Part shown: one piece after another, positions 18,920 to 64,000 of the stretch
Layout: the number at the start of each line of letters is the position of its first letter
How positions within the stretch are numbered: the first letter of the stretch is position 1
Source of the DNA: a virus
Strand: one strand, 5' to 3'
Virus record (IMG/VR): IMGVR_UViG_3300003702_000965
Location: 19,951-83,950 of that record
DNA length: 64,000 bases
Translations under genes and position numbers: made by a program
Notes under the pieces: generated by a model
Told to the model about the DNA's origin: nothing
What the model saw: the letters and a program-made list of their open reading frames with translations, nothing else
Databases searched by the model: none

Positions 18920-19280
18920 ATTTTTCTAAAATCAAATATATATTATAGATAAACAGGGTCAAGATTACGACTAACGGGAAATATAGCGGCATAATGAATA
19001 CGACAGCTACGCTCATCCAAAAGGTTAAGCAAATAGGGCATGATACTAATTTTGAAAAAAAGTCATCGTTCGTAATTGACAGAAACTCAGAGTAATTTAC
19101 ACTAACTTTAGCTTGATTAACAAAATTTTCGTATTCTTCCAAGTTAAAAAGCTCTTTGATTATCCTTATTTTATCGAGCTTTAATACTTTTATATATTCA
19201 TAAAAAACATTAGTTTTAAGCCAAATTATAAGGACTAGAGAATAAACAAATGGAAGCAAGATTATAGCCCCGTTATCCAT
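18909..19280 (-). CDS. Multi-pass membrane protein with a CPICxxFW motif (DUF1360-like)
   Basis: The chosen start is the ATG at 19280 (MDNGAIILL), which overlaps the previous stop by only 8 bases; a longer reading to 19304 exists. Hydrophobic segments lie at the N-terminus (ILLPFVYSLVLIIWL) and as two passes at the C-terminus. The SCPICLTFWMS motif at the start of the second membrane segment resembles the CPxCxGFW signature of DUF1360 membrane proteins found in phages and bacteria. Function is unknown; location is the inner membrane by prediction. Confidence 0.65.
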   Translation of the reverse strand: MDNGAIILLPFVYSLVLIIWLKTNVFYEYIKVLKLDKIRIIKELFNLEEYENFVNQAKVSVNYSEFLSITNDDFFSKLVSCPICLTFWMSVAVVFIMPLYFPLVVILTLFIYNIYLILEKYAR

Positions 19281-20682
19281 CTTTTGTATTGCAAAAAGAC
19301 ACAATCACATATCTTGTGCCGCTGGTGGTAGGTCTAGCTCCATGCTTATGAGTTATATTACCGGGATGCATAACCACTTCTCCAATGTCGTTTTGGACGA
19401 GTATTTTTTGCCTTCTAAAATATGTTCCGCTCCCTTCAAAATCCCTTCCACGTTGATTTAGGTTAGCTAGAAAGGTCAGCTTCGAATAGTCGTGGTGAAG
19501 CGATAGGTGCGACTGCTTGGATGGTATATATTTTATAATGAAGTTTTCCCCCGTTAAGGATGCCCAGTTTGAGCCTTCCAGCGCGTATAGAAATTCAGCG
19601 GCAGGGTAGCAGTGCTTCTTCAAAACTTGTTCATATACATTATTGATTCCCACTGTATCTAATAACATGTCAGTTGTAGGATAAAATTCATGCCTTTTCT
19701 CTGTCCACTCCCCCTCGGTTTCGCATAAATCAATCATTTCTTTACAGAAAATTTCATTGAAAAGGGGCCATTTGAAAATGTTTGAGTATCCGGGTTCTCC
19801 CAATTCATCTGCCATCAATTCCCATTCGTGGGAGCGAGCCTCTATTCTCAGGTATTTTTCTTCCCAAGCTTTTGGGTCTTTGTCGTAGTCTCTTATCGAC
19901 AAGTCTCCTTCCGTTGGCTGACCTTGTGGGCTGTCGAATCTAGATGCTATATTTCCTTTTAAGGGTTCTATTTTTTTTGTCTTGATTGGCTTAAATTCTT
20001 CGTAGCCGAAGTCTTCTTTCCCTGACTCCCCCTTTTTGGTCACCTCCTTGCTTATGGTGACGCCGGGTACTGGGGAAATGAGAGGCTGTGAAAATTTAGA
20101 CTTCTCTCCATCTGCTCTTATGAAAGCTACCAATGTTAGTCTTCCGTCATACAAATCATTACCAAAGTATTCGTCAGACTTGTGAAAGAAGAGAGGGTTG
20201 TAGATCATACATCTGTTATATACGTTTTCTACTGTTTCTCTTACGTCATACCATTTTGGATCTCCATCTGATTCTTTATATTCTTTAGACTTTTTATTTG
20301 CGCTTTCTTTTAAGTCGTAAATTATAGTGCCTGAATTGGGCTTTGGGTCAGGAGTAAGGTAAATTAAAGCAACATGAGTGAAGTCTTGATCCATCTTGTC
20401 GTCATGAACCCAGCTATCCCCGTCTTTTGAAGTACACAATTGAAACATTACCTCAAAATAAGACTCTTTACCTTGCGGCCAGCCCATAACTTCGTATATT
20501 CTCCCAGTAAACTCATAATAAAGTTTTTCGCTGAGAGTATGATAAAAAGGAGTTCTAGTTCCGGGCCAATTGCCCCCAGATGGATGAGTTTCTTTTGGAA
20601 AAAACTTCTGAGAAAGGGCGAACTTCCTTACTTTATCAGGATCTGGGAAAAAATTTTCGAATACAAGCTCTTTGTCACTCAT
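19273..20682 (-). CDS. Double-domain 2-oxoglutarate/Fe(II) dioxygenase; C-terminal domain lysyl-hydroxylase (PLOD)-like
   Basis: The N-terminal domain (about 1-200) has an HxD at H93/D95, a distal His at H167 and a 2OG-binding Arg candidate R181, as in DUF6445-type oxygenases. The C-terminal domain (about 280-469) has H396/D398, H447 and R457. The segment HPGNITHKHGARP followed by GTRYVIVSF closely follows the lysyl-hydroxylase pattern HPGxxTHxHEGxP...GTRYxxVSF, including the 10-residue step from His to Arg. Such enzymes hydroxylate protein side chains using 2OG, O2 and Fe(II). The substrate is unknown. The gene is followed by dCMP deaminase (6 bases) upstream on the same strand. The family call is strong; the lysine specificity is inference. 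Confidence 0.85.
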   Translation of the reverse strand: MSDKELVFENFFPDPDKVRKFALSQKFFPKETHPSGGNWPGTRTPFYHTLSEKLYYEFTGRIYEVMGWPQGKESYFEVMFQLCTSKDGDSWVHDDKMDQDFTHVALIYLTPDPKPNSGTIIYDLKESANKKSKEYKESDGDPKWYDVRETVENVYNRCMIYNPLFFHKSDEYFGNDLYDGRLTLVAFIRADGEKSKFSQPLISPVPGVTISKEVTKKGESGKEDFGYEEFKPIKTKKIEPLKGNIASRFDSPQGQPTEGDLSIRDYDKDPKAWEEKYLRIEARSHEWELMADELGEPGYSNIFKWPLFNEIFCKEMIDLCETEGEWTEKRHEFYPTTDMLLDTVGINNVYEQVLKKHCYPAAEFLYALEGSNWASLTGENFIIKYIPSKQSHLSLHHDYSKLTFLANLNQRGRDFEGSGTYFRRQKILVQNDIGEVVMHPGNITHKHGARPTTSGTRYVIVSFCNTKDG

Positions 20683-21180: not shown

Positions 21181-21209
21181 TTGACAAACAAAAAGGTGTC
21201 GAATATTAT
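21181..21209 (+). promoter_or_regulatory. Consensus sigma-70-type promoter driving the 21.2-21.6 kb region
   Basis: TTGACA (21181-21186), a 17-base spacer and TATTAT (21204-21209) give 11 of 12 consensus matches. The predicted start is near 21216. No start codon with a credible frame follows for over 400 bases, so the transcript would be non-coding or a long leader of the sigma-like gene. Confidence 0.8.
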
Positions 21210-21377
21210 TTGTTAATTGCTTTTCGCGGCAAGTAGCCTAGCGAGGATATCTCGCTTCAACACGTAAGAGACAACAGGCCCGTAAAAAGACGCCAATCAA
21301 GAAGGCTAATAACCTTCACGCTATTTCGGGAAAAGGCGGCGTTTGAGATTGGAAAAGCTGTTAACTTGGGCGACCCC

Positions 21378-21606
21378 TCTGGGGGAAGGAAGAAGTTAAA
21401 GTGTCAAAAAACAAGTCCTGCCGCTTAATGTTAAGCAATGTACATAGCTGAATTTGGTTGTGAGCTAGGCTGAAGCATGGCCGACGCGTAGGACTGAAAC
21501 GGGTAAATTCAGACCATTTTTTAGGTAATGTCATGATTTTCACTTGACGGTTACCAAGTTGACTGCTATTCCTTAGGCTCCTCCTCGGAGGAAGGAAGAA
21601 GTTAAA
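21378..21606 (+). repeat. Two copies of a 17-base purine-rich motif, each after a GC hairpin
   Basis: GGAAGGAAGAAGTTAAA occurs at 21384-21400 and again at 21590-21606. Each copy follows a short C-rich/G-rich hairpin (CCCC-TCT-GGGG and CCTCC-TC-GGAGG). The second copy can pair with AACTTCTTC (21606-21614) immediately upstream of the terminator hairpin; the first copy has the same pairing potential. Confidence 0.8.
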
Positions 21607-21618
21607 ACTTCTTCTTAT

Positions 21619-21642
21619 GCGTTCTGCGAACGCTAATTTTTT
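21619..21642 (+). terminator. Intrinsic terminator just before the sigma-like gene
   Basis: GCGTTC-TGC-GAACGC (21619-21633) is a perfect 6-bp stem with a triloop followed by TAATTTTTT. The next ATG is at 21649, so transcription from the 21181 promoter would stop 6 bases before the sigma-like gene unless read through. This favours an independent RNA or an attenuator. Confidence 0.8.
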
Positions 21643-21648
21643 AAACAT

Positions 21649-22257
21649 ATGGATAGCCAAGTAACCGTTTCTGATTTAGAGTTAGTCGATGAAATAAGAG
21701 AGTTTAAGTGCTCCGACAGTCTTGTAGCGTTGACTGGTAGGCATGTCGGGATCCTAAATAAAGTCTTCAAAAGATATTCGGGGGCCTTAGTTTCTATTGG
21801 GTATTCCTATGATTCCTTTAAAGGTGATTTTAATTTAGTTACTTTTAAAGCTTGCACATCATTTAGAATAGAAGGCGGGTCTAAGTTTTCGACTTGGCTA
21901 TGTAATCACGCAAGATACCACTGTTTGAATCAAATAAATAAAAAAAATAAAATTAAAGATTTAAGTATCGAAGATGAGCAATATTTAGAATTCTTAGCGC
22001 AAAGCCAAAGCCTGCCCAACTCCTTCAAGCTCGAAATAGATTACGTCTTTAAAATCCTGTCAGACATGAAAGACAAAAGGATTTCCAAAGTTTTTAATAT
22101 GAGATATTTCGGAGAAATTGGAAAAAATGGATGCCCTTGGTCTAAAATAGGTGAAGAACTTGGGATAAGCACCCAGACGGCGATAAATTTACATGAAAAA
22201 GGAGCTAAATTAATCAGAAACAAGCTTAAAAGCCCAAACCCGACTGACAAAATCTAG
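21649..22257 (+). CDS. Sigma-70-family-like RNA polymerase sigma factor
   Basis: Residues about 75-125 match a region 2 core-binding and -10 recognition helix (KFSTWLCNHARYHCLNQINKK). Residues about 150-195 form a region 4 helix-turn-helix (MRYFGEIGKNG, then WSKIGEELGISTQTAINLHE). The 202-residue length and two-domain plan fit small alternative (ECF-type) sigma factors, as used by large phages to direct late transcription. It follows an intrinsic terminator by 6 bases and has no clear Shine-Dalgarno sequence. Which promoters it reads is not known. Confidence 0.8.
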   Translation: MDSQVTVSDLELVDEIREFKCSDSLVALTGRHVGILNKVFKRYSGALVSIGYSYDSFKGDFNLVTFKACTSFRIEGGSKFSTWLCNHARYHCLNQINKKNKIKDLSIEDEQYLEFLAQSQSLPNSFKLEIDYVFKILSDMKDKRISKVFNMRYFGEIGKNGCPWSKIGEELGISTQTAINLHEKGAKLIRNKLKSPNPTDKI

Positions 22258-22298: not shown

Positions 22299-22604
22299 AT
22301 GGCTGATAACAAGTCGAAAAGCACAGAAGTAGGGGCTCTCTGGAAAAGGGTAGCTAAGAACTCAGGTAAGACTTATCTGGCTGGTCACATCGCAATTGAA
22401 GATCTCGGAGCAATGGCTCTAGAGAAGAAAGTTAAGATAGTGGTCTTCTCCAACAATAAAGAAGGGCAATCTGAAAATGCTCCAGATTTTAGGATGTATT
22501 TATCCAAAGTCATAGAGCAGAGGAAAGAAGAGTCTTCGACGGCGACTCCTCAGCCTGAAGCCGAGGTGGTTTCCGCTTCGCCTGAAGATGGAGATCTCAT
22601 TTAA
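22299..22604 (+). CDS. DUF736-like small protein
   Basis: The 101-residue protein has the DUF736 pattern: a GALWKRV...KTYLAG strand pair, then VKIVVFSNN and a NAPDFRMYLSK segment, followed by an acidic, low-complexity tail ending with PEDGDLI. DUF736 proteins occur in phages and plasmids, and their function is not established. The acidic tail resembles those of ssDNA-binding proteins, which is only suggestive. It is the first gene of the run and overlaps the next by 17 bases. Confidence 0.65.
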   Translation: MADNKSKSTEVGALWKRVAKNSGKTYLAGHIAIEDLGAMALEKKVKIVVFSNNKEGQSENAPDFRMYLSKVIEQRKEESSTATPQPEAEVVSASPEDGDLI

Positions 22605-23682
22605 CTTACCTATTAACTCAGTCTCTTTCGGGCAAGTTTCTTTAGCTTTACTCAGGGAGGCTTTCAACAGAAAGCTTCAGCCTTCTCTTGTTCCGATAGG
22701 GGAGGTTGATCTTTCTTCACAGTCAGGCGTAACTGACGAGTTTAAATCTTGGTTAGACTCCTGCCTCAAAAAGGGAAGGACCGAACACAGCAGGGAAGTC
22801 CCATGCTTGAAGCTTTGGCACCTTAACGGAGGCATGGAATCTATTAGCAACAAACCTAATTTGCTAACGTTTTACGAACTAGACGAACCGACTAAAACCG
22901 AGATTAACGTAGCAAGAAACAATAAAGTAATATTTACTTCATCTTATACGAAAAATATCTTCGAAAGAGAAGACATAGATTGCGGTTCAATCCCTCTAGG
23001 ATTTGATTTGTATAATTTTCATAAAATAAAACCTACTGACAAACGTTTTCCCGACGACAGGATAACCTTCAACTTAGTTGGTAAATTCGAGAGGAGGAAG
23101 CACCACGAAAAAGTAGTTAATGCTTGGCTAAAGAAATTCGGAAACAACAGGAAATATCTCCTTCAGTGTGCTATATATAATCCGTTCTTTTCGGAATCCG
23201 ATAACGAGAAAGTCTGGGATTCTCTTGGCAGAAAGTCGGGTTTTTTCAATTTAAGTTTTTTAGGATTCATGAAGAGGAACTCTATCTATAATGATTTTCT
23301 GAATTCTGGAGATGTTGTAATCGGAATGTCAGGAGGAGAAGGCTGGGGCCTCCCCGAATTTCAGTCCGTTTGTTTGGGGAAACATGCTGTTATATTAAAC
23401 GCTTCAGCATATAAAGATTGGGCCAACGAAGATTGTTGCGTTATGGTTGAGCCTTCTGGAAAAATCCCCGCTTATGATGGAATATTTTTTAAAGAGGGTG
23501 GGGACTATAACCAAGGGAGCATTTTTGATTTCTCTGAAGATGATTTTATTTCCGGCTGCGAAGAAGCGATTAAAAGAGTAGAGGCTTCCAAAGATAAAAA
23601 TAACGAAGAGGGAGAACACCTTAAGGATAAATTTTCCATCTCTAATTCATTCGACAAAATATTAGATTGTATATATGCCTGA
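22588..23682 (+). CDS. Glycosyltransferase, GT-B fold (GT4-like)
   Basis: This 364-residue enzyme has the GT4 C-terminal signature: a FNLVGKFERRKHH strand-loop and a GGEGWGLPEFQSVCLGKH segment with the nucleotide-sugar-binding Glu. The middle SSYTKNIF and GSIPLGFDLYNF segments fit the inter-domain region. It transfers a sugar from a nucleotide donor to an unknown acceptor. It heads a run of about ten sugar-related genes with ATGA overlaps. Confidence 0.82.
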   Translation: MEISFNLPINSVSFGQVSLALLREAFNRKLQPSLVPIGEVDLSSQSGVTDEFKSWLDSCLKKGRTEHSREVPCLKLWHLNGGMESISNKPNLLTFYELDEPTKTEINVARNNKVIFTSSYTKNIFEREDIDCGSIPLGFDLYNFHKIKPTDKRFPDDRITFNLVGKFERRKHHEKVVNAWLKKFGNNRKYLLQCAIYNPFFSESDNEKVWDSLGRKSGFFNLSFLGFMKRNSIYNDFLNSGDVVIGMSGGEGWGLPEFQSVCLGKHAVILNASAYKDWANEDCCVMVEPSGKIPAYDGIFFKEGGDYNQGSIFDFSEDDFISGCEEAIKRVEASKDKNNEEGEHLKDKFSISNSFDKILDCIYA

Positions 23683-24019
23683 ATATACATATGAGAATCC
23701 GGAGACAGGAGAAACTGTAAACGTCTTCCAAAAAATAGACGACGATCATGAATACTCAAAAGACGGACTACAATACAACAGAGTCTTCACGGTCCCTAAC
23801 GCTTCCATAGACTCGGACCTGTCCTCCCTTTCCGAAGAAGCCTTCGTTAGAGCTACGGCCAAGAAGAAAGGTACCTTGGGTGATTTATGGGATGCTTCAA
23901 AAGAAGCCAGTCTAAAGAGGGAGAAAACTTACGGGAAAGATCCCGTTAAGGAGAAATATTTCAAAAAATATAGCGAAAAAAGAAAAGGAGCTAAGCATAA
24001 AGATGACCCGTCCAGATGA
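23675..24019 (+). CDS. FmdB-like small phage protein (114 aa)
   Basis: The N-terminus (MPEYTYENPETGETVNVFQK) follows the FmdB pattern MPxYxY...F but lacks the CxxC zinc ligands, as is common for phage versions. The rest is a charged helical tail. It overlaps both neighbours (8 and 17 bases). Its role is unknown. Confidence 0.55.
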   Translation: MPEYTYENPETGETVNVFQKIDDDHEYSKDGLQYNRVFTVPNASIDSDLSSLSEEAFVRATAKKKGTLGDLWDASKEASLKREKTYGKDPVKEKYFKKYSEKRKGAKHKDDPSR

Positions 24020-25022
24020 AATAACTTTCGTCGTAATATCTAACGGCAACAATCACGAAAAGCTAAAGAGGCTTTTAACAAGCATAGAGCATAACGGCGA
24101 ACACCACCTAAAGTCTTATGAAATAAACCTATGTGGCGAAGCTGGAGACTTCGAGCTTCCTGCTATTGTAAATTATTTTCATTTGCCAGAGGACGCCTCT
24201 AACGCTCGACTTGGGGACATGAGAAACGTTGGGTGCGAAAACGCGACTAAAGAAACAATTTGCATTTTAGATGACGATTTTATTTTGGCTCCTGATTGGG
24301 TAGAAAATATTCCTCATAATTATTTCGATATTATGACTTCTCAGGTTAGAGTTCCTGATGGAGGCAGATATTGGGATCACGCATGCTACATGAGTCCCAC
24401 TAAAGGTCACGTAATTCTTATGCCAGACGAAAAGGATGACTGTTTGTATATGTCTGGAGGATGCGCTTGGATGATGAAGAGGAAAGTGTGGGAAAAAGTT
24501 AAGTGGGACTCTTCTGGGATTTACAACATGAGCAGTCTGGAGGAGTACAAAGAAGGAAAGCATAATGAAGACACTCACTTTTCTTTAAGGTGTAGGGAAA
24601 ATAAGTTTTTATTAATCCATAACCACGACTCCATTTCTTTCCATGACGACGATTCCTATACTAATGTCGGCAGGATCTGCAACAGAAGAAGAGACGACAG
24701 AAGCTATTCTTGGGTTTTGGACTTGAGCTTATCTTTTTCTCCGTCAGTGTTATGCGACTTTGCTGTTTCCCTCTTTTCGAACGGCTTTCTTCCTGAATCG
24801 GCTGATATACTTAGGTATGGACTGATTAACTTTCCATCAAATTATGATCTACAAAAGACATTTGAATCCACAATAGTTAAACACTCTGGAGTTTTAGAAG
24901 ACTCTAGATACTCTCCCAATGGTGACCCTTTATATTTAGAGTTTAAGTCTTTTTATGACGACGACTCAGATGACGACTCCGAACTCGAGGGACTAACCCA
25001 AGAGCAAATGAATATCCTCTGA
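24003..25022 (+). CDS. Glycosyltransferase family 2-like (GT-A)
   Basis: The GT-A metal-binding motif is CILDDDFILAPDW near residue 88, preceded by GDMRNVGCENA, a typical GT2 substrate loop. A GCAWMMKRKVW segment and HNEDTHFSLRCR provide the expected acceptor/catalytic Asp region. The C-terminus is a helical tail ending with an Asp-rich stretch (DDDSDDDSE). It overlaps the previous gene by 17 bases. Confidence 0.82.
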   Translation: MTRPDEITFVVISNGNNHEKLKRLLTSIEHNGEHHLKSYEINLCGEAGDFELPAIVNYFHLPEDASNARLGDMRNVGCENATKETICILDDDFILAPDWVENIPHNYFDIMTSQVRVPDGGRYWDHACYMSPTKGHVILMPDEKDDCLYMSGGCAWMMKRKVWEKVKWDSSGIYNMSSLEEYKEGKHNEDTHFSLRCRENKFLLIHNHDSISFHDDDSYTNVGRICNRRRDDRSYSWVLDLSLSFSPSVLCDFAVSLFSNGFLPESADILRYGLINFPSNYDLQKTFESTIVKHSGVLEDSRYSPNGDPLYLEFKSFYDDDSDDDSELEGLTQEQMNIL

Positions 25023-25023
25023 T

Positions 25024-25767
25024 ATGAGAATAGGCCCAATTCAAAGTTTATGGATAGGAGACGAGCTTTCTGATTTGGAGGTTTTATGCATAAATTCCTT
25101 CTTGAAAAATGGATATGATTTTCATCTTTACACGTACGGAACTATAAAAAACGCGCCTAAAGATTGCGTCATATTAGACGGCAACGAGTTTCTAGAAGAA
25201 TCGGAGGTTTTCTCCTACAAAGTAGGAGTAGGGAAGGGCAGCTTTTCAGCCTTCTCTAACCTCTTTAGATACAAAATGCTTTATGACATTGGCGGGATCT
25301 GGTGCGACACTGACGTAATAAATTTAAATCCCATCCCGAACATGGAATATCTTTTCGCGTCAGAGAAAGATGGCGACGAAATAGTCTGCGCTTCTTGTTT
25401 CATAAAAGCTCCTAAGGGTTCTGCTTTCGCCAAGTATTGTTACGATAAGGCCTCTTCTGTAGACAGAGAGAAGCTTGAATGGGGCCAGATAGGTCCTAAG
25501 TTAGTAGGGGAAGCGGTTAAGACTTACGGTCTTAGCGACTTTATTGTTCCCTTCAAAAAATTCAACCACGTTCCTTGGTATAGCGCTGAACTCTTTTTTT
25601 ACGATGATCCAGAAAATATGGGCGAGATGCTTTATGAGAGCATAGCCAGCGAAGCGTATTGCATTCATATGTGGAACGAAGTTTGGAGAAGATTAGGTTT
25701 GGATAAGAGCGCGGAGTTTCCGAAAGGCTGTTTCTACGAGGTGTTAAAGTCCAAAATAAAAGTATGA
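25024..25767 (+). CDS. Glycosyltransferase with DXD sugar-binding region (GT32-like)
   Basis: The segment SAFSNLFRYKMLYDIGGIWCDTDVI (shown in part) near residues 75-100 is the hallmark of GT32/TcdA-TcdB-type enzymes, where the DTD binds metal and nucleotide sugar. The N-terminus PIQSLWIGDELS and HLYTYG also fit. The 247-residue length is usual for a single-domain family member. The next gene starts with an ATGA overlap. Confidence 0.85.
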   Translation: MRIGPIQSLWIGDELSDLEVLCINSFLKNGYDFHLYTYGTIKNAPKDCVILDGNEFLEESEVFSYKVGVGKGSFSAFSNLFRYKMLYDIGGIWCDTDVINLNPIPNMEYLFASEKDGDEIVCASCFIKAPKGSAFAKYCYDKASSVDREKLEWGQIGPKLVGEAVKTYGLSDFIVPFKKFNHVPWYSAELFFYDDPENMGEMLYESIASEAYCIHMWNEVWRRLGLDKSAEFPKGCFYEVLKSKIKV

Positions 25768-26519
25768 AGAAAATATATTTAAATGATTTCTTTCAGGAAA
25801 GTGGTTATGATTGGGAGAACGACGCACCCATGATGAAAGAAATTTGCAAGCTCAGCAAAACTAGACACATGGAAAACCCTCCGAAAGAGTTTCAATTTAC
25901 TTACGGAATGGAGCAGCCATTTTTTATCAAGGCTTTTTTGGAAAACGTATATTGTGAGAAGTTTTTTGAGATTGGAACGGGAAGGGGAACTTGTTCCATG
26001 GCGGCTTCTTTATGTAAAGACATGAGAAAGGTAGATAGTTTTGACATTCTTGTTCCGGACGAGAAGAGAGATAACGTAATAAATTTCAGAAAGGAGGAAG
26101 CGTCTAATATGGATATTCTGGAGAGATTTAGGACTAAGGCTGCTAAGATTACAAACTTCGTTGCTCAAGCGTACCCTAGTGAAATTAAATTTAATCATGT
26201 TTCAGGGTACGCGAAGTTTATTGACGACCCAGATAATAAAGACTATAGCGTCTGTTTCATAGACGGAGACCACGATAATGCTGAAACAATTTTAAAAGAC
26301 TATCTAATATGCAACAAAGTGATGGAGAAATCTAAAGAGGCTTATATTATTTGGGACGATTACTATCCAGATAAGTTCGCCGTTAAGGAAGTTGTAGATA
26401 AAATCACGGAAGTAGACGGAAGGGAGTGCACTCTAGTTCCTTTCAGAGGCCATTTATTTGATAGCGACGATAAAGCCAGAGAGGAAGACTCTGGCGAAAT
26501 AATAATGAAAATGACATGA
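25764..26519 (+). CDS. Class I SAM-dependent methyltransferase
   Basis: FFEIGTGRGTCSMA near residue 66 is the SAM-binding Gly-rich motif, and CFIDGDHDNAETILKDY near residue 158 is the acidic/metal motif seen in CmcI- and caffeoyl-CoA-type methyltransferases often found in glycan clusters. YIIWDDYYPDKF follows. It probably methylates a sugar or another small acceptor. It overlaps both neighbours by 4 bases. Confidence 0.8.
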   Translation: MKKIYLNDFFQESGYDWENDAPMMKEICKLSKTRHMENPPKEFQFTYGMEQPFFIKAFLENVYCEKFFEIGTGRGTCSMAASLCKDMRKVDSFDILVPDEKRDNVINFRKEEASNMDILERFRTKAAKITNFVAQAYPSEIKFNHVSGYAKFIDDPDNKDYSVCFIDGDHDNAETILKDYLICNKVMEKSKEAYIIWDDYYPDKFAVKEVVDKITEVDGRECTLVPFRGHLFDSDDKAREEDSGEIIMKMT

Positions 26520-27511
26520 AGATAGCGTATTTATGCGATAGAGACACCTATCTACATAAAATGTCTAGGGTTAGGTTTCACGGCATTCAAGCCATATCGG
26601 AAACGAATGAAGTTAAATGGCTAGGGAGAGGATGGAACAATGACGCTCAATTAGGATTTGGGTGGAACGGCTCCCTAACCGTAGACGAAAACTTTAAAAG
26701 ATTAGGTTTTTATCCTGATTTAATAATTGGATATAAACCTTTAGATATTCTAGGCTTTTGTGACTCTAAAATCAAGAAGTGCATTAGATACAATGAAATG
26801 TACGACGTAGAATGGACGATAAGAGAAATCGTCGAGAGTAACGCTGACATAGTCATTTGCCACCACCAAAATGATTATGAAGAATACGTTTCTAATTATC
26901 AAGTTTCGGAAGACCACAAAGTTGGCCTTAGTAGCGTAACTTTCGTTAACATCCCCCATTGTGCTGAAAAGACAGTTTTCAAAGACTATGGTCTCGCCAA
27001 AGAAACAGACTTACTCTTAGTTGGCGCTACCTTCGCTCAGAGTACCCTAGGTCAGCATTATCCCTTGAGAGACAGAATGGCAAGTGACATCTTACCAAAA
27101 CTTTCGCTTAAATATAATTGCAAGATATATGAGCACCCCGGATACAGCATGGGAGACGCACACACCAACATATACGCCCAAAACTTTGCGAGAGCCATAA
27201 ACTCAGCCAAAATAGCTATAACCTGTTCCGGCTTGCCCAGAAGTAGATTTGGTAAATATGTAGAAATTCCCATGTGCAGAACAGCCATTGCTGCCGACAT
27301 GCCCGGCGAAATGCAAGACTTTTTTAAGGAATTTTTAATTAACATAGACATGAGTCACTCCGACGCTCAAATAATGGCCTTGTTGGAGAATAACCTAAAA
27401 GAGCCCCACAGGATACAACAGAAGGCAGACAGAGGATATGAGATGAGCAAGAAATTCGACCAAGAATATTACGCCGAATTATTTAACGAAAAAGTCTTGA
27501 GCTTGTTATGA
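26516..27511 (+). CDS. Glycosyltransferase, GT-B fold
   Basis: This 331-residue protein starts with a Rossmann strand (MKIAYLCDRDTYLHKMSRVR). PDLIIGYKP and VTFVNIPHCAE fit the N-domain, and the C-domain has GKYVEIPMCRTAIAADMPG, equivalent to the GT4 E-x(7)-E region. It sits in the ATGA-coupled glycosyltransferase operon. Donor and acceptor are unknown. Confidence 0.72.
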   Translation: MKIAYLCDRDTYLHKMSRVRFHGIQAISETNEVKWLGRGWNNDAQLGFGWNGSLTVDENFKRLGFYPDLIIGYKPLDILGFCDSKIKKCIRYNEMYDVEWTIREIVESNADIVICHHQNDYEEYVSNYQVSEDHKVGLSSVTFVNIPHCAEKTVFKDYGLAKETDLLLVGATFAQSTLGQHYPLRDRMASDILPKLSLKYNCKIYEHPGYSMGDAHTNIYAQNFARAINSAKIAITCSGLPRSRFGKYVEIPMCRTAIAADMPGEMQDFFKEFLINIDMSHSDAQIMALLENNLKEPHRIQQKADRGYEMSKKFDQEYYAELFNEKVLSLL

Positions 27512-28434
27512 AAGTCCTACCCATTCACGGAAACGAGAACTGGCTCTGCGATAGATACGCGCAGGAGTGGAAGGATCTCAACACTTTCCACGCTTGTCCC
27601 TACAACAACTCTAATGATGCGGATGTTCTTTGGTTGCTTGCTCCTTGGGAATGGAAACAGATACCCAAAGCGTATTTAGAGACAAAGAAAGTCGTTTGCA
27701 CTATCCACCACATGGTTCCAGACAAAACCGACGAGTCTACTTGGAAAGAATTCGAAGAAAGAGATAAGTATATTGACGCTTACCATACCCCCTGCTTTCC
27801 CTCTTACGCTCAGTTCGGCCCCAGAATAGGCCACAAGCCGTTCTTAATTAATCCTTTTTGGTGCAATAATGAAATCTTTAAACCAATAGACGACAAAATT
27901 GGATTGAGGGAGAAATACGGAATAAAGCAAAAAGCCCATTTAATGGGCTCGTTCCAAAGAGACACAGAAGGCTCTGACCTCTCTTCCCCAAAACTGGAAA
28001 AAGGTCCGGATGTTTTTTGTGACATTATTGAGAAAGAGAAGGAAAAGAACCCCGACGTTGAGGTTCTATTAGCTGGATGGAGAAGGCAGTATGTTATAAA
28101 TAGATTAAACAAGGCCGGGATAAAGTATTATTATTTTGAACTACCTTCAATTAAAACGATTAATGAGCTGTATAACTGTTTGGACCTTTATGTTGTAGCT
28201 GCCAGATACGAGGGAGGGCCTCAGTCTATTCCGGAATGTATTATGACCAATACCCCCATTGTATCTACTCCCGTTGGCTTATCCAGCAAACTGCTTCACC
28301 CCAAAAGTATATTTTCCTCTTCTTCTAATTTTAATAGAGCTTCTCCTGACTTGTCTTGGGGAGAAAGAGCTATTGCGCCTTATATAATTCCAGAAGGCTT
28401 CAAACCATTCAATGATTTTTTCGATAGCTTATGA
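27508..28434 (+). CDS. Glycosyltransferase, GT4-like
   Basis: The C-terminal domain has the GT4 motif: VVAARYEGGPQSIPECIMTNTPIVSTPVG (E-x(7)-E type, about residues 230-258). HLMGSFQRDTEG opens that domain with the usual diphosphate-binding Gly-rich loop. The N-domain is short. It overlaps its neighbours by 4 bases at each end. Confidence 0.82.
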   Translation: MKVLPIHGNENWLCDRYAQEWKDLNTFHACPYNNSNDADVLWLLAPWEWKQIPKAYLETKKVVCTIHHMVPDKTDESTWKEFEERDKYIDAYHTPCFPSYAQFGPRIGHKPFLINPFWCNNEIFKPIDDKIGLREKYGIKQKAHLMGSFQRDTEGSDLSSPKLEKGPDVFCDIIEKEKEKNPDVEVLLAGWRRQYVINRLNKAGIKYYYFELPSIKTINELYNCLDLYVVAARYEGGPQSIPECIMTNTPIVSTPVGLSSKLLHPKSIFSSSSNFNRASPDLSWGERAIAPYIIPEGFKPFNDFFDSL

Positions 28435-29369
28435 ATTCACTTAATTTTTCCACTTTGATTAGGTGGCTGATAACTATTCAAGACTCGGGGTATCCTTGGA
28501 CTTTGCAAAAAAACCCAAAGGGGGTAGACAGGTGCCTTCTTTCGTCAGCTAGCCTTTTTTGTAAGCTCTCTAAAATTTACGAAAATTATTTTCAACCCGA
28601 CAAAGAAGAATTGAAAAAAATTATTTTATCCTTCACTAGAAAAAAGGATGGCATGCTGGAAGACATATCCGGCAAACAGAATATCATATCAGAGACGAGG
28701 CAGGCTTTTTCGGGCTTGAAAAATATAGGAGAAAAACTTCCCCCTTTTGACCCTTCTGAATATTTTCAAGAGCCTCTTTATTTTCTACAAGACGACGAGT
28801 GGGACAACCCTTGGGGCGCTGGAGCGCATCTTTCTCATTATTTGTTTTTCATGAAACAAACAGGACAAACCTCGAAAATTAGCGAGGCCTTAGATAGGAT
28901 TAAAATATATGAACACGAAGACGGCTGGTATAGAAACAAGCCCGACGATCACACTTTAGTTAATGGGATCATGAAAGTCATGACGGCTTACGACGCTGCC
29001 AAAGTAGAAATTCCCGCGAGTTTAAAGGAAACTATATTAGACTACGTTTTTAAATATGCTTGCGAAGGTGGCGGTTGTGGAATTTACGACTTCGTCTATG
29101 TTGTGGATAAATGTATGGACTTGGGGCTTCACACCGACAAATGTGAGAAATCTTTAAAGAACTGTTTTGAATTCATATTGAAGCACCAAAAGAAAGATGG
29201 AGGGTTTTCTTATAACCTTAATCAGTGTCAAACAAGCTTTTACGGTAGGCGCATAGCCGATCCGTTTGCGTGTGGGGACGTTCATGGAACGACTTTACTT
29301 AGCATGGCTTTAGTGAGAATTGATAGTGGTTTAAATTTAGATTATAATCTGTCTTTCGCGGTTACATGA
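28431..29369 (+). CDS. Alpha/alpha-toroid protein (prenyltransferase/terpenoid-cyclase-like fold)
   Basis: The 312-residue product is built of helical hairpins with recurring aromatic/Gly motifs such as DEWDNPWGAGAHLSHYLFF and FILKHQKKDGGFSYN; the QKxDGGF element is the repeat signature of squalene-cyclase/prenyltransferase-type alpha toroids. The usual catalytic DxDD is absent, so cyclase activity is doubtful. Similar toroids occur in glycan clusters as lyase- or epimerase-like enzymes. Role in the glycan operon is unknown. Confidence 0.55.
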   Translation: MNSLNFSTLIRWLITIQDSGYPWTLQKNPKGVDRCLLSSASLFCKLSKIYENYFQPDKEELKKIILSFTRKKDGMLEDISGKQNIISETRQAFSGLKNIGEKLPPFDPSEYFQEPLYFLQDDEWDNPWGAGAHLSHYLFFMKQTGQTSKISEALDRIKIYEHEDGWYRNKPDDHTLVNGIMKVMTAYDAAKVEIPASLKETILDYVFKYACEGGGCGIYDFVYVVDKCMDLGLHTDKCEKSLKNCFEFILKHQKKDGGFSYNLNQCQTSFYGRRIADPFACGDVHGTTLLSMALVRIDSGLNLDYNLSFAVT

Positions 29370-30142
29370 ATAAGATAGTTGGAATTTGTTTATTCAAAGA
29401 CGAAGAGATATACGCTGAAACCGTTATACATAATATAATTGACTTTTGCGACAAGATTATTATCATAGATAACAATTCCACCGACAAGACCTTCGATATA
29501 GTAAGAAAACGCTTCTCGTCTAGTCCCAAGGTGACTATGTTAAAAATGGAAGACCATTTAGCTTCGGGAAGAATGACGTATTCTTTTTTCGGATCAAAAA
29601 CTTTTCTTTTTGCGGTAGATGGTGACGAAATATACGATAGAGACGGGTTAAAAGCTATGAGACAAAGAATTAAAAATGGATTTTTCGACAAAGTTTGGAA
29701 AATCAGCGGAACCTCTTTCCACGTTAACGATGTCTCCTCTACTTGCGTTTCAGGTTTTTCCTGCCCTCCCAATAAGCATGTGACGAAACTTTACAATTTT
29801 AACGTTATAAATTCTTGGGATCAAGGCGAAAGACTACATGGGGTTGGCTTAAATCCACAGCCATATTATAAAGAGAGTCTTATTGATGTAAAATTCGCAA
29901 ATGAAAGAGGCTTGGAAGAGTCTAATCAAGTAGATTGGAGATTCTCTGAATTTAGGTGCCTGCATATGTGTTTTGTTCGAAGATCCCAACGAGACTCCGA
30001 GGATTCAAATTTTCGGTGTGAAGCTGGCTTCTATAGACCAGCCCCAATAGGGCACGATTTTAATTATAAAGCTATAAAATACGGGCTAGGGCCTACTCTA
30101 AAAATAAAAAGATCCACCTTGAAGCCTTTCCATTTGCCGTGA
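29366..30142 (+). CDS. Glycosyltransferase family 2-like
   Basis: The N-terminus (GICLFKDEEIYAETVIHNI, then IIIIDNNSTDKT) is the GT2 nucleotide-binding region of the 'SPBc2 prophage-derived' type. The metal motif is FAVDGDEIYD near residue 87. It is a GT-A enzyme of the subgroup that starts with a KDE motif. Its ATG overlaps the previous stop by 4 bases. Confidence 0.85.
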   Translation: MNKIVGICLFKDEEIYAETVIHNIIDFCDKIIIIDNNSTDKTFDIVRKRFSSSPKVTMLKMEDHLASGRMTYSFFGSKTFLFAVDGDEIYDRDGLKAMRQRIKNGFFDKVWKISGTSFHVNDVSSTCVSGFSCPPNKHVTKLYNFNVINSWDQGERLHGVGLNPQPYYKESLIDVKFANERGLEESNQVDWRFSEFRCLHMCFVRRSQRDSEDSNFRCEAGFYRPAPIGHDFNYKAIKYGLGPTLKIKRSTLKPFHLP

Positions 30143-31095
30143 TAGACGAACTCCCCAAAGATAAAACTTTCGTTTTCGGCATGTGCCCTAATAGACACTC
30201 TGCCGGAGGAGGGGGCACGAAGTTTGTTAATTATTTTAGCGAAAAGCTTGTTGGGAGAGCTTCGTTTTTTATTAACTCCAATGAGCCTGACCCTGATTAC
30301 ATTCTGCTTTTCGATCCTAGACATTTAGATTTTTCAGGCAATTGGCTTAGTCTCGATGTTCTAAAAGAGATCAAAGCTAGAGGCATAAAGAGTAAAATCA
30401 TCCACAGAATAAACGACATAGGATACCCTAAGAATAGACCACCAGAGTATGTTGACGCTGTAATAGAAATGGCTAATTTATCCGATAAGGTAATTTATGT
30501 TTCTGATTTTGTTAGAGATTATTATGGAGACAGGATAAAGACGGAGTACGAAGTCATACCAAACGGCGTAGACGAAAGGATCTTCACTTTTAAGGAATAT
30601 TCTTTTGATAAACTTAGGTTCGTTACACACCACTGGTCTTCTGATCCCATGAAAGGCAAGGTTCTATACGATTTCATAGACGAAATGTTGTCGGATTTAG
30701 AGGGGGAGGCTGAGTTCACCTATATTGGGAACCCTCCCAAGGGGTCAAATTTCAGAAGAACCAACGTGATAAAACCCCTTTACGGAGAAGAGCTGGCTAA
30801 TGAAATTAAAAAGCATAACATTTATGTTTCTGGTTCCCAGCATGAACCCTGCGGCATGCATAAACTAGAAGGAGTTGCCTGCGGACTTCCCATAATGTAC
30901 AATGTAGACAGCGGAGATTCGTACCTTACGTCAGATTATGGAGTCGGCATAGAATATAACGGTTTTCCCAAATTTGGTATTGCTTTAGCTGAAATGATGG
31001 GAAACCATAAGCGTTTTTATGATAAAATAGTTAATAATTTTGATTTATATTTAGAAAATAGATGCGTTAAGTATTTAGAATTTATAACGAAATGA
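30139..31095 (+). CDS. Glycosyltransferase, GT4-like (GTG start)
   Basis: VIPNGVDERIF near residue 138 is the inter-domain motif of GT4 enzymes. SGSQHEPCGMHKLEGVACGLPIMY is the C-terminal E-x(7)-E nucleotide-sugar site. The gene begins with GTG overlapping the preceding stop (GTGA) and ends in an ATGA overlap with the epimerase gene. Confidence 0.85.
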   Translation: MIDELPKDKTFVFGMCPNRHSAGGGGTKFVNYFSEKLVGRASFFINSNEPDPDYILLFDPRHLDFSGNWLSLDVLKEIKARGIKSKIIHRINDIGYPKNRPPEYVDAVIEMANLSDKVIYVSDFVRDYYGDRIKTEYEVIPNGVDERIFTFKEYSFDKLRFVTHHWSSDPMKGKVLYDFIDEMLSDLEGEAEFTYIGNPPKGSNFRRTNVIKPLYGEELANEIKKHNIYVSGSQHEPCGMHKLEGVACGLPIMYNVDSGDSYLTSDYGVGIEYNGFPKFGIALAEMMGNHKRFYDKIVNNFDLYLENRCVKYLEFITK

Positions 31096-32003
31096 AATAT
31101 TTAGTTACAGGAGGTTTCGGGTTCATAGGCTCCCACTTAGCCGTTAAGCTTATTAGAGACGGCCATCACGTTACAATCATAGACGACTGTTCCTCTGACA
31201 GCGTCTCATCCCCCCCTTGGCATGATAATTGTGACTTCATCAATTGCGACATCATCAACACCCAGTTCTATGAAAAATTTTTGAATGGTGTTGACGTAGT
31301 GTTTCATTTAGCCGCTAAAGCTAGGGTTCAGCCCTCTATAGCTGATCCTGTTTATTTCGATTATACCAATGTTCATGGTACAGTTAACCTATTCAAAGCG
31401 TGCGTCGACGCTGGAGTCAGAAAAATTGTTTTTAGTTCGTCCTCTTCGGTTTACGGGGACGCTGAAATGCCTACTTCAGAAAATCATCGGCTTTCCCCCC
31501 AAAGTCCTTATGGTTTACAAAAGAAGATAGGGGAGGAGTATCTCGAACTTTTCACCAAGATTTACGACATAAAGGGGGTTTCTTTGAGATATTTTAATGT
31601 TTACGGAGAAGGAATGCCCCTTGGAGGGGGTTACGCAACCGCCATTGGCATCTTTTTAAATCAAAGAAGGAATGATAAAAAAATCACCATATTTGGAGAC
31701 GGAGAACAGACTAGAGATTTTACTCATGTAAACGACGTTATCCAAGCTAATATATTAGCGGCTACGGCTACCACAGAGGGACTTGAAAATTATGAAGTTT
31801 TCAATGTGGGGAACGGGGACAATGTTAGCGTGAACGAAGTAGCTAAATTAATAGGAGGAGACATACAGTATCTAGCGCCTAAAATTGAACCCAAAGCTAC
31901 ACTTGCGGACAACTCAAAAATTAAAGAAAAACTAAAATGGGCTCCTACCGGAAATTTGCATAAATGGATCCCCGAATACAAGAAAATCGCGAACATACAA
32001 TAA
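31092..32003 (+). CDS. NAD-dependent sugar-nucleotide epimerase/dehydratase (extended SDR)
   Basis: GGFGFIGS (residues 7-14) is the NAD-binding motif. FSSSSSVYG with YGLQKKIGEE supplies the catalytic Ser, Tyr and Lys. LRYFNVYG and FGDGEQTRDFTHVNDV are typical of UDP-glucose 4-epimerase/dTDP-glucose dehydratase relatives. It probably converts a nucleotide sugar used by the neighbouring transferases; the exact substrate cannot be read from sequence. Confidence 0.88.
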   Translation: MKYLVTGGFGFIGSHLAVKLIRDGHHVTIIDDCSSDSVSSPPWHDNCDFINCDIINTQFYEKFLNGVDVVFHLAAKARVQPSIADPVYFDYTNVHGTVNLFKACVDAGVRKIVFSSSSSVYGDAEMPTSENHRLSPQSPYGLQKKIGEEYLELFTKIYDIKGVSLRYFNVYGEGMPLGGGYATAIGIFLNQRRNDKKITIFGDGEQTRDFTHVNDVIQANILAATATTEGLENYEVFNVGNGDNVSVNEVAKLIGGDIQYLAPKIEPKATLADNSKIKEKLKWAPTGNLHKWIPEYKKIANIQ

Positions 32004-32004
32004 A

Positions 32005-33129
32005 ATGCAAATATTAAACATAACTACAGCTAGACAAATTAGAAATAAAATGGATCCGAACGAAAAGTGTGTTGTCATCACTGGCGTCACAGGCCAAGAC
32101 GGAAGTAATATGGTTGATTATCTACTTGATACGTCTCATTCCATATGGGATAATGGCTTACATGTATACGGCGGAGCCAGAAGATTAAGCCTCGACAACC
32201 ATACAAATATTGAACATTTAAAAGATAACGAGAATTTCTCTTTAATAAACCTAGATATTACCGACACTACTTGCGTTAATAGAGTCATAAAAGATCTGCA
32301 GCCAGATTATTTTATTAATTTTGCGGCGCAAAGCTTTGTCGGGAGTAGCTGGGACCTTCCCAAGCAAACTTTCGCTGTTAACGCTACTGCTGTTTTGGAT
32401 ATGCTTGAGGCTATTAGACTCTATGCTCCTCTTTGTAGATTTTACCAAGCGGGTTCTAGCGAAGAGTTTGGAGATGTCGCCTACGCTCCACAGGACGAGA
32501 AGCATCCCTCAAGACCAGTTAGCCCTTACGGAGCCTCTAAGGTTGCCGCTAGGGCTTTAGTTAAGGTTTATAGAGACTCTTATAATCTATATGCTTGCGC
32601 TGGCTTCCTTTTTAATCACGAAGGAGTTCGTAGAGGCGAGGAATTCGTAACCAGAAAGATTACTAAGGGGGTAGCTCGGATAAAACAAGCTATGATAAAT
32701 GGGGAAAAATTCGAACCAATACAATTAGGCAACGTGAACTCCAAAAGAGATTGGTCTGATTCGGAAGATTTCGTGCACGGCGTTTGGCTTATGCTTAATC
32801 AAGATAAGCCGGGAGAATATGTTTTATCTAGCGACGAAACTCACGAAATAAAGGAGTTCGTTTCTCTAGCTTTTAACGCGGCTGGGATCGATGGACACTG
32901 GCAGGACGAAGGCATGGATGAAAAATTTGTAACTGATTTACATAATTATATTCTTTCTGAAGTCAATGAAAAGTTCTACAGGCCAGCGGAAATTGATTTG
33001 CTTTACGGAGACTCTTCCAAGGCAAGAAAAGAGCTAAAGTGGGTTCCTAGGGTGTCTTTTCCTCAGCTTGTTCGCAAAATGGTTTCTAATGATTTGAGCT
33101 TGTTGGGAATTGATGACATTTCTTCTTGA
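32005..33129 (+). CDS. gmd: GDP-mannose 4,6-dehydratase
   Basis: The signature elements are VVITGVTGQDGSNMVDYLL (NAD site), FAAQSFVGSSWDLP, QAGSSEEFG, SPYGASKVAA (Tyr and Lys) and FNHEGVRRGEEFVTRKI, which together are specific for Gmd. The product is GDP-4-keto-6-deoxymannose, a precursor of GDP-fucose, GDP-rhamnose or GDP-perosamine. A GMER/fucose synthase is not seen; the preceding epimerase could act on the product. It follows the epimerase by one base in an ATAAAATG context. Confidence 0.92.
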   Translation: MQILNITTARQIRNKMDPNEKCVVITGVTGQDGSNMVDYLLDTSHSIWDNGLHVYGGARRLSLDNHTNIEHLKDNENFSLINLDITDTTCVNRVIKDLQPDYFINFAAQSFVGSSWDLPKQTFAVNATAVLDMLEAIRLYAPLCRFYQAGSSEEFGDVAYAPQDEKHPSRPVSPYGASKVAARALVKVYRDSYNLYACAGFLFNHEGVRRGEEFVTRKITKGVARIKQAMINGEKFEPIQLGNVNSKRDWSDSEDFVHGVWLMLNQDKPGEYVLSSDETHEIKEFVSLAFNAAGIDGHWQDEGMDEKFVTDLHNYILSEVNEKFYRPAEIDLLYGDSSKARKELKWVPRVSFPQLVRKMVSNDLSLLGIDDISS

Positions 33130-35052: not shown

Positions 35053-35469
35053 TTGAAGCTATACAACGTAAACGGAAGAATCGTAGGCAAGGATGTAGTT
35101 AAGTATAGAATCAAGTGGAATAAAAAATGCAGGTCGAAAATCCAATACAAAGTAAAACAATTCCTGAAGCCTTACTGGAAGAACCACATATGCTTCGAGG
35201 AGTTCCCTGTTTTCGGGACTAGGCTGAAAGTAGACATGATTAACTTTACCAGAAAAGTAGCCATAGAAGTTCAAGGAAACCAACATTACTCCTTCAATAA
35301 ATTTTTTCATTCTAATTCTAGATTAAAATACTTGGAGTCAATTAGAAGAGACAATCAAAAACAAAACTGGTTAGAGCTTAATAAGATAAAGTTAATAGAA
35401 ATTTTAGAAAATGAAGTCGACAATTTGTCTAAAAAGTTTTTTTATGAAAAGTTCAACCTTAAGTTATAA
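35053..35469 (+). CDS. PD-(D/E)XK-type endonuclease (Vsr/DUF559-like)
   Basis: The conserved core is LKVDMINFTRKVAIEVQGNQHY, giving D and ExQ in restriction-endonuclease-fold order, followed by RRDNQKQNWLELNKIKLIEI, as in Vsr/DUF559-like nucleases. The protein is small and basic. The start appears to be TTG at 35053, since no ATG precedes the domain. It could be a repair or recombination nuclease (for example a junction resolvase) or a homing-type enzyme. Confidence 0.65.
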   Translation: MKLYNVNGRIVGKDVVKYRIKWNKKCRSKIQYKVKQFLKPYWKNHICFEEFPVFGTRLKVDMINFTRKVAIEVQGNQHYSFNKFFHSNSRLKYLESIRRDNQKQNWLELNKIKLIEILENEVDNLSKKFFYEKFNLKL

Positions 35470-41951: not shown

Positions 41952-42622
41952 TAACAAGTTTCGATCAGTTTGATTTCGAGGTCCTTAAAAGCTTTGATAA
42001 GATTATCGTCTCTGGCCCTCAAAGATCAGGAACAAATTTAGCTTGTCAGTATCTTGACAGTGTTTTAGGTTACAATTATATAGATGAGCTGGAATTTAAC
42101 TTTTTTTTAGAGACTCATTTTTTAGAAAAAATCAAAGAACACAAGAAACTGATAATGCAGGCTCCGACAATGAGCCATATACTGCACTTGATAGAAGAGC
42201 CCAAAACTTGTGTCTTTTTTCTTTTTAGAAACCCCTCTGAAATAATTAGGTCTCAAAATAGAGTTAGATGGGCAGCTGAAAAACATGAGCGGAAAAATTA
42301 CACTAGTAAGGAATATGAGTTCTTACCTATCTCAATTGCTAAATATTCAGAATGGTGTTTTCATCAAAGAAAACTAATGAAGGTCCCTTTCTTTGAATTA
42401 GACTTCGAAGCTCTTCGTAGCTCTCCCATTTGGTCTTCGGATTTTGGGTCTAGTAGTGATTACCAACCAGATACCTCTTGGAAACCAGCCAGCGCTAAAG
42501 ATGATGGTGGCAGATGGGCTTTTGTGGACACAGGGAAAGGGAAGAACAGATCACTTAAAGTAGTAGAGTATTGGTTTGAGACAGATGAGGCTATTGAAAA
42601 ATGCAGGATACCAAGAAAATAA
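41933..42622 (+). CDS. Sulfotransferase-like protein (PAPS-dependent)
   Basis: The ATG at 41933 is used rather than the TTG at 41918. The 5'-phosphosulfate loop is SGPQRSGTNLA (about residues 27-37) and the 3'-phosphate motif is FFLFRNPSEIIRS (about 99-111), the two hallmark motifs of the family. It could sulfate a glycan or protein. It separates the exonuclease from the polymerase and overlaps both (19 and 22 bases). Its last residues (FETDEAIEKC) resemble the TxEIAEKC segment of DnaE that would belong at this position, a possible remnant. Confidence 0.78.
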   Translation: MASGNIITSFDQFDFEVLKSFDKIIVSGPQRSGTNLACQYLDSVLGYNYIDELEFNFFLETHFLEKIKEHKKLIMQAPTMSHILHLIEEPKTCVFFLFRNPSEIIRSQNRVRWAAEKHERKNYTSKEYEFLPISIAKYSEWCFHQRKLMKVPFFELDFEALRSSPIWSSDFGSSSDYQPDTSWKPASAKDDGGRWAFVDTGKGKNRSLKVVEYWFETDEAIEKCRIPRK

Positions 42623-61524: not shown

Positions 61525-61601
61525 GCCCCGATAGCTCAATTGGATAGAGCATCTGCCTTCTAAGCAGGGGGTTACAGGTTCGATCCCTGTTCGGGGTACC
61601 A
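61525..61601 (+). tRNA. tRNA-Arg (TCT anticodon), CCA encoded
   Basis: The acceptor stem is GCCCCGA (61525-61531) with TCGGGGT (61591-61597), including a terminal G-U. The D arm is GCTC/GAGC. The anticodon stem flanks loop CTTCTAA with TCT at 61559-61561. The T arm is ACAGG-TTCGATC-CCTGT. The discriminator A and CCA (61599-61601) are encoded. It reads AGA/AGG, codons used very often in this phage. A T-run after the CCA may act as terminator. Confidence 0.97.
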
Positions 61602-63423: not shown

Positions 63424-64000
63424 ATGTACATAAAGACCCTGACTGCGGCTTCGAGGAGGGCAACCAGAGGGTTCACGCTGATTGAACTTCTGGTTGTTAT
63501 AGCCATTATTGCGATCTTAGCGGCTCTTCTGCTTCCTGCACTGGGCTCCGCCAAACAAACGGGCTGGCAGGCTGCATGTATAAGCAACCAACGCCAACTT
63601 AACCTCGCTTACGCAGAATTCGCGGGAGATCACGAAAATAGGTTCCCTTATGCCTCAGCTTGGGCTGGTGAGCCTACTGGTATGTGGGCGTGGGTTGCGG
63701 ACAGTATGAGTGGTAACGGCCCGTGGGGCCAAACTGACAGACCTCTCTTCTTTTCTCCTTTAAAACCTTATGCGGGAATGGGCATATATCATTGTCCGGG
63801 GGATAGGTCAACGGTTACGGTTAATAATAAGATCATAAACAGGCCGCGTTCTTATAGTATAAATATTTTTGTCGGTGGTTGGTCGGGGTGGCCTTGGCTG
63901 TCAGATACGCAATACAAAATTCATCATACTTACGATGATGTATCTAACTCTAGTCAATTGTTTACTTTTATTGAAATGCCGCCTCAATCTATTAACGCTG
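63424..64000 (+). CDS. Pseudopilin-like secreted protein with class III signal peptide (3' truncated by window edge)
   Basis: ATG at 63424 opens a frame that runs to the window end. After a basic leader ([15 protein letters not shown]) comes the prepilin site [10 protein letters not shown] and a hydrophobic helix ending [10 protein letters not shown], the form most common in the PVC superphylum. The mature part has the short motifs [20 protein letters not shown] and YHCPGD seen in DUF1559-like/xcp-type pseudopilins. The base composition is clearly richer in G+C than the preceding genes, indicating recent acquisition from a host. It likely inserts into the host envelope through a prepilin peptidase. 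Confidence 0.85.

Follow-up and report, generated by a model that had tools for sequence, protein, structure and literature searches.

Genomic context of the locus

The stretch of DNA analyzed here (the window) comprises 64,000 nucleotides of an uncultured virus contig, and the features on which the analysis centers are the following, with positions counted within the window.

Window: positions 19951-83950 of the 83,950-base contig IMGVR_UViG_3300003702_000965
20689-21165, minus strand: dCMP deaminase gene, to the left of the structured RNA
21181-21209, plus strand: sigma70-like promoter read from the sequence, TTGACA (21181-21186) and TATTAT (21204-21209) separated by 17 nt
21215-21642, plus strand: structured RNA, predicted transcript including the terminator (nhmmer/blastn homologues, covariation, covariance model match, lengths)
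21619-21642, plus strand: intrinsic terminator GCGTTCTGCGAACGC-TAATTTTTT, read from the sequence
21649-22257, plus strand: sigma-like gene, to the right of the structured RNA
42601-45204, plus strand: DNA polymerase III alpha-type polymerase

An earlier inspection of the sequence had proposed that the segment between the deaminase and sigma-like genes encodes a new class of large structured RNA. The gene map agrees with the divergent setting then described, in which minus-strand nucleotide genes face a plus-strand sigma-like gene, and both the consensus promoter and the perfect intrinsic terminator said to bracket the segment are found in the sequence. The claim that its roughly 430 nt hold no credible protein frame was also borne out, as no reading frame is common to the homologues described below, the longest frames of which differ in strand, phase and position; the window copy itself contains a 99-aa antisense ORF (21361-21660, minus strand). 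In most homologues a TTG-box is followed 16-18 nt further on by a -10-like box, most often placed 7 nt ahead of the RNA's first helix, so that transcription would start at the first paired base of that helix (P1a).

The window phage encodes a DNA polymerase of the polymerase III alpha type, a DnaB-like helicase, a primase and a UvsX-like recombinase, for which only remote relatives are found among cultured phages. The closest cultured relatives of the polymerase are some 25-27% identical to it, and its clade amounts to about 50 IMG/VR contigs.

Several other features of the genome were noted. The protein encoded at 19273-20682 (minus strand) is possibly a fusion: its N-terminal part matches DUF6445 / phage minor coat protein (phrog_1644), and its C-terminal part is a 2OG-Fe(II) oxygenase. 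A long run of genes at 22588-33129, without close relatives in most sister contigs, is bounded at its start and end by glycosyltransferase-like and GDP-mannose dehydratase-like genes and resembles an exchangeable block for sugar modification. Of the 10 RNA-bearing contigs that were compared, 9 share a small HNH-endonuclease-like protein (window 35053-35469, plus strand), conserved at 50-65% identity. At the contig end, a pseudopilin ORF (63424-64000, plus strand) carries a prepilin-type N-terminal motif (PF07963). In a sample of 241 genomes from the phylum to which a Lentisphaerae MAG belongs, 234 have ORFs with this motif, and the pseudopilin may hint at a Verrucomicrobiota-type host; the comparison set behind this hint consisted of only seven genomes, and the host itself remains a guess.

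Distribution of the RNA and absence of known families

Searches with cmscan of positions 21215-21642 against the 4227 families of Rfam 15 returned no match, either at the gathering threshold or at E<=10, where only three irrelevant low-score matches were obtained; the sole match above a curated cut-off in the whole window is a tRNA at 61525-61598. These searches answer the question of a known RNA family in the negative, and the covariance models of GOLLD, ROOL and OLE were unmatched, in agreement with the original prediction, which had not recognized GOLLD or ROOL features by eye.

The first homologous loci were retrieved through the neighboring deaminase gene, yielding DNA homologues in L035, L038/L043 and L039 (nhmmer E-values of 1e-18 to 1e-31), and further ones were obtained with patterns derived from the conserved core (CAGGNCCGTAAAAAGA) and from the segment S described below. 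With blastn, nhmmer and pattern searches combined, the homologue collection that had been called for now stands at about 24 distinct copies, all of them in uncultured viral contigs, several of which are fragments. Looser pattern scans of viral contigs added few homologues. Neither a blastn search of 50,697 cultured phages (INPHARED) nor a pattern scan of GTDB species genomes produced anything beyond chance matches, short ones in the former case. A covariance model did not detect the RNA in 40 further viral contigs, mostly carrying related polymerases; no positive control was included there, and the same model recovered every expected copy in a separate run. The 17-nt repeat described below was discarded as a probe on its own, since in viral contigs it returned unrelated matches, mostly to one recurring coding-like motif.

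In the homologues the RNA occupies a slot upstream of a dCMP-deaminase / dNMP-kinase / sigma-like gene cluster, and at the loci examined it precedes an operon for a dNMP kinase, a sigma-like protein, a small DUF736-like protein and a glycosyltransferase. The gene immediately following varies, being sigma-like in the window and a dNMP kinase elsewhere. A protein search with the sigma-like gene identified no viral relatives.

Comparative evidence for a conserved fold

The single-sequence fold of the window copy is only modestly better than chance (z of -2.2; 1 of 100 shuffles), so that proof of a structure had to be comparative. For 20 homologues, RNAalifold reports 57 consensus pairs, 35 of which show compensatory changes. 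A hand-drawn model of 46 pairs, including three pseudoknots, has 85.4% of its cells paired (75.5% in shuffled alignments), changes on both sides in 28 pairs (14.5 in shuffles) and a covariation score of 0.332 (0.148 in shuffles). None of 500 shuffles equals it on paired cells, covarying pairs or covariation score, and shifting the partners by at least one base abolishes its scores. Two helices of this model are one bulge off in the window sequence, and their correct pairs covary in RNAalifold. The elements of the fold, all on the plus strand, are as follows.

21216-21222 with 21433-21439: helix P1a, ATTGCTT/AAGCAAT; own-versus-other pairing test in 12 RNAs, p = 5e-5
21226-21230 with 21420-21424: helix P1b, GCGGC/GCCGC; 96% of cells paired, one covarying pair
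21241-21255: hairpin GCGAG-GATAT-CTCGC; covarying (RNAalifold columns 41-47/53-58)
21267-21291: most conserved core, AGAGACAACAGGCCCGTAAAAAGAC; invariant columns in alignments A2 and A3
21279-21282 with 21327-21330: pseudoknot CCCG/CGGG across the 21293-21352 helix; 100% paired
21293-21352: three-way element, with helix 21293-21298/21347-21352, hairpin 21301-21317 and helix 21318-21320/21340-21342
21374-21384: small hairpin CCCC-TCT-GGGG before the first tag (consensus columns 190-193/198-201)
21414-21418 with 21491-21495: pseudoknot AGTCC/GGACT; 98% paired, two covarying pairs
21448-21455 with 21505-21512: pseudoknot CTGAATTT/AAATTCAG across AGTCC/GGACT
21468-21482: stem GGCT/GGCC (21468-21471 with 21479-21482); 100% paired, with covariation

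Covariation, which had been put forward as a check, is abundant in both models and extends to the pseudoknot originally proposed between 21448-21455 and 21505-21512, all eight pairs of which covary (91% paired). The long-range helix proposed between 21351-21369 and 21554-21572 fared differently: the complementarity is real in the window, but it is not conserved (58.7% of cells paired versus 56.5% in shuffles). The conserved long-range helix is instead that formed by 21216-21230 with 21420-21439, which closes the 5' domain. The sequence of its P1a portion varies, reading ATTGCTT/AAGCAAT in the window and GUUCUUUG/CAAAGAAC in other RNAs, and each strand pairs better with its own partner than with those of other RNAs; a boxA-like reading of the 5' GUUCUUUG was dropped, this strand being one side of a covarying helix. 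In the three-way element, the outer helix covaries in 6 of its 6 pairs and the other helices covary too, and the CCCG/CGGG pseudoknot shows a C-G to U-A change in two RNAs.

Together, homologues and covariation show that the segment encodes a noncoding RNA of about 400 nt and that an uncultured clade of phages carries a new family of structured RNAs, to which it belongs. The candidate class inferred from a single sequence is thus supported by comparative sequence analysis, and we regard it as nearly certain that 21215-21642 belongs to a real structured-RNA family.

Twin tags within each RNA

The original prediction made no mention of a short sequence (hereafter the tag) that occurs twice in the RNA, and which, together with a conserved segment, defines three further plus-strand features.

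21384-21400: tag copy 1 (R1), GGAAGGAAGAAGTTAAA, direct repeat; R1/R2 match test, p ~2e-5
21558-21575: segment S, conserved; duplex energies allow imperfect pairing with R1 or R2
21590-21606: tag copy 2 (R2), GGAAGGAAGAAGTTAAA, direct repeat near the 3' end of the RNA; R1/R2 match test

Every complete RNA of the window family (type I) contains such a repeat of 11-17 nt, one copy internal and one 3'-terminal, 178-207 nt apart, and the homologous RNAs measure 365-408 nt up to the end of the second tag. The tag itself differs between phages: it reads GGAAGGAAGAAGTTAAA in the window, AAAGGCTGACAGTCAA in L035, AAAGCTGATAGTC in L086, AAGCTGGCAGTTC in L070, AAAGGCAAGCAGTCAT in L081 and AAAGGATAAGCAGTCA in the majority of the others. 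Among nine representatives, the mean local score of R1 against R2 is 14.9 within an RNA and 8.4 between RNAs, with a permutation p of ~2e-5 that is the limit of the test for a match within the RNA. In 13 close relatives both tags are invariant over the 9-11 scored positions, the average identity of the whole RNA being 0.92. Two tag copies that lie at homologous places and change together need a shared constraint.

The source of this constraint was sought without success. Neither the tag nor its complement was found elsewhere in the phage contigs, except for a single-mismatch match of the majority tag in G000. No 5' regions of shared phage genes were seen to co-vary with the tag (31 groups, best z about -2), no enriched 7-mers were identified as tag targets in phage genomes, and across 241 genomes from one candidate host phylum the majority tag does not form a conserved element. 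Pairing between the two tags looks possible in some RNAs and is weak in the majority. The predicted mean unpaired probability is 0.54 for R1, which would be moderately open, and 0.21 for R2, which is predicted to be mostly paired and hence not simply an exposed seed.

A constraint internal to the RNA, the main rival of the trans-acting model preferred below, is a possibility that we consider rather less than likely but cannot set aside. S might pair either with R1 over a long range or with R2 in a local hairpin, forming a two-state device, perhaps driven by transcription or by a ligand, in which the tags match because both must fit S. Indeed, S is conserved, and in almost every one of the nine representatives it pairs with either tag, with mean duplex energies of -14.0 kcal/mol for S-R1 and -11.8 kcal/mol for S-R2; the minimum-energy fold of several RNAs has R2 folded onto S. 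Nevertheless, S changes little where the tags change much, as in L035 compared with the majority, convincing co-variation with the tag is seen for no stretch of the RNA, and S has no significant preference for the tag of its own RNA (p = 0.44 for R2 and 0.07 for R1), which leaves such a switch possible but unproven.

Two further RNA types in the same slot

In sister phages, the slot upstream of the dNMP kinase holds two other, previously undescribed types of noncoding RNA, each with its own promoter-like sequence.

Type II, 300-400 nt: L237:340-750, L239:480-870, L240:200-640; also L236, L241, L242, L243 (minus strand)
Type III, about 400 nt: L245:760-1195, L246:735-1170, L049:3850-4250 (minus strand), L040:2975-3440 (minus strand)

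Neither type matched Rfam at E<=0.5, the one chance match obtained lying outside the RNAs. The alignments lend support to a structure in both types, though from few sequences: compensatory changes affect 11 of 29 pairs in the type II alignment (6 sequences) and 19 of 59 in that of type III (4 sequences). Type II RNAs repeat a AGGGAAAAG or AAGGGAAGT motif internally and at the 3' end, and the twin tags of type III change as a pair (CATGCT in L245, ACATTG in L049, CACACG in L040). The recurrence of the twin-tag layout makes an accident of one lineage unlikely, albeit on few sequences, and, with the same reservation, suggests that the three RNA types may share a common principle.

It is conceivable, if doubtful, that one endoribonuclease or RNA-binding protein has a site in each of the two A-rich tag modules, the RNA serving for instance as a decoy for a host toxin in the manner of type III antitoxin RNAs. 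In types I and III, A-rich stretches (GAGGAAAAAG, AGAAAAAG) precede the tags, the type II repeats contain an A-rich stretch, and there is a pseudoknot in the middle domain, which separates the two tags. Type III antitoxin RNAs (ToxI and relatives) likewise combine repeated sequence with a pseudoknot, but they would be expected to show short tandem units and an adjacent toxin gene, whereas type I RNAs have no short tandem repeats, only two copies 178-207 nt apart, and a ToxN-type toxin gene (PF13958) was found in none of 15 phage records, in a search without positive control. Furthermore, the inter-tag unit, ~180-207 nt in type I, is far shorter in types II and III, and conservation is highest in the 5' domain, outside the repeat unit.

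We consider it very unlikely that the transcript re-invades its own DNA, with R1 pairing to the template strand at R2 or the reverse, so that an R-loop forms and primes replication. The RNA does lie at a divergent junction, in most contigs close to a GC-skew minimum, a UvsX-like recombinase, a DnaB-like helicase and a primase are encoded by the phages, and any sequence identical to R2 will by definition match the non-template strand at that place. Yet the skew tracks gene direction on both sides, G000 having plus-strand genes and positive skew to the left of the RNA, and type I is missing from related phages that have the same polymerase, even if type II or III is present in some of them. Skew that follows gene direction provides no independent evidence, and the GC-skew minimum was discarded as an origin signal for this reason. 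A cis-acting leader, that is, a riboswitch or attenuator of the downstream dNMP-kinase / sigma operon, appears equally remote: the RNA always lies ahead of the same operon, and many copies have ~50 nt between the end of R2 and the following start codon and show no clear second promoter, but the next gene differs between phages, the window copy terminates intrinsically 7 nt before the sigma-like gene, and several copies have a separate promoter or tRNA ahead of the next gene (promoter-like sites after R2 in L035, L086, L098 and L130). A template RNA of a reverse transcriptase (retron, DRT or telomerase-like) was rejected, its requirement for such a gene being unmet in 20 of 20 phage records searched with PF00078; the positive controls worked, and some of the records are fragments.

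In L035 a tRNA-like gene sequence (~3660-3600, minus strand) directly follows the second tag, and the 3' end of that RNA may come from tRNA processing.

A trans-acting RNA as a tentative model

The explanation that we tentatively prefer, without holding it to be established or even probable, is that of a trans-acting phage RNA with two tags that bind one common partner outside the phage genome; no function has been shown. A free-standing RNA would be transcribed from its own host-type promoter and so probably early, an inference made without expression data. Its fold, for which covariation provides the evidence, consists of a closed 5' domain and a pseudoknotted 3' half that carries both tags, and would most likely serve as the scaffold of an RNA acting in trans. 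The same partner would then bind both tags on equal terms, be it a host protein or a nucleic acid of the host recognized by base pairing, and the pair might be rewritten whenever the partner changes, for example on a move to another host. The purpose can only be guessed at, host takeover or counter-defence being candidates.

We count in favor of this trans-acting model the constancy of the neighboring genes, the covariation, the lack of a shared frame, the promoter-like pair, the terminator of the window copy and the separate promoter or tRNA ahead of the next gene in several other copies, the lack of convincing co-variation of the tag with 5' regions of shared phage genes or with the RNA itself, as well as the match of the tags within each RNA, their absence elsewhere in the phages and the layout of types II and III. 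Against it stand the failure to find a partner and the predicted pairing of R2, and it remains possible that the tags pair briefly and imperfectly with a partner in cis. It might also be postulated, improbable as we deem it, that the tags are programmable addresses, a guide copy and a matching second copy on each of the three scaffolds of an RNA-guided system. R1 would then direct either the RNA or some unidentified protein of phage or host to a nucleic acid with a sequence matching or complementary to R2, and specificity would be changed by rewriting both copies together.

Relationship to known large RNAs

The RNAs closest in kind to the window family are GOLLD, ROOL and OLE, although it matches the covariance model of none of them. 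GOLLD is a large pseudoknotted noncoding RNA of phages and prophages, often above 800 nt and of unknown function, ROOL is encoded by phages and prophages and has multiple pseudoknots and no identified protein partner, OLE is a large structured RNA that forms homodimers, and RNA-only homo-oligomers have been reported for all three (PMC12286853).

The window-family RNA resembles GOLLD in being large, pseudoknotted and phage-encoded, with one copy (L035) also adjoining a tRNA, but it measures only ~400 nt and has no Rfam match even at E<=10; we know of no GOLLD counterpart of the co-varying tag pair. With ROOL it shares its phage origin, multiple pseudoknots and the lack of an identified protein partner, but no sequence or structure match, and copies turned up in uncultured phages alone, with none among cultured phages or in GTDB species genomes. 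OLE, also a large structured RNA, differs in the absence of an Rfam match and in having been described from bacteria rather than from this phage locus; homodimers such as those of OLE are one option for the twin tags. The window-family RNA may work like these three, for instance by assembling into multimers, a suggestion for which there are no oligomer data.

Few large structured RNAs are known from phages, and what they are for has yet to be settled. To these the analysis adds one family with good support, from a clade of uncultured phages, and apparently another two in the same slot, and what sets them apart from the known large phage RNAs is a short sequence identical at two places in each RNA that changes between phages. 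This paired change is directly testable and should lead to the partner.
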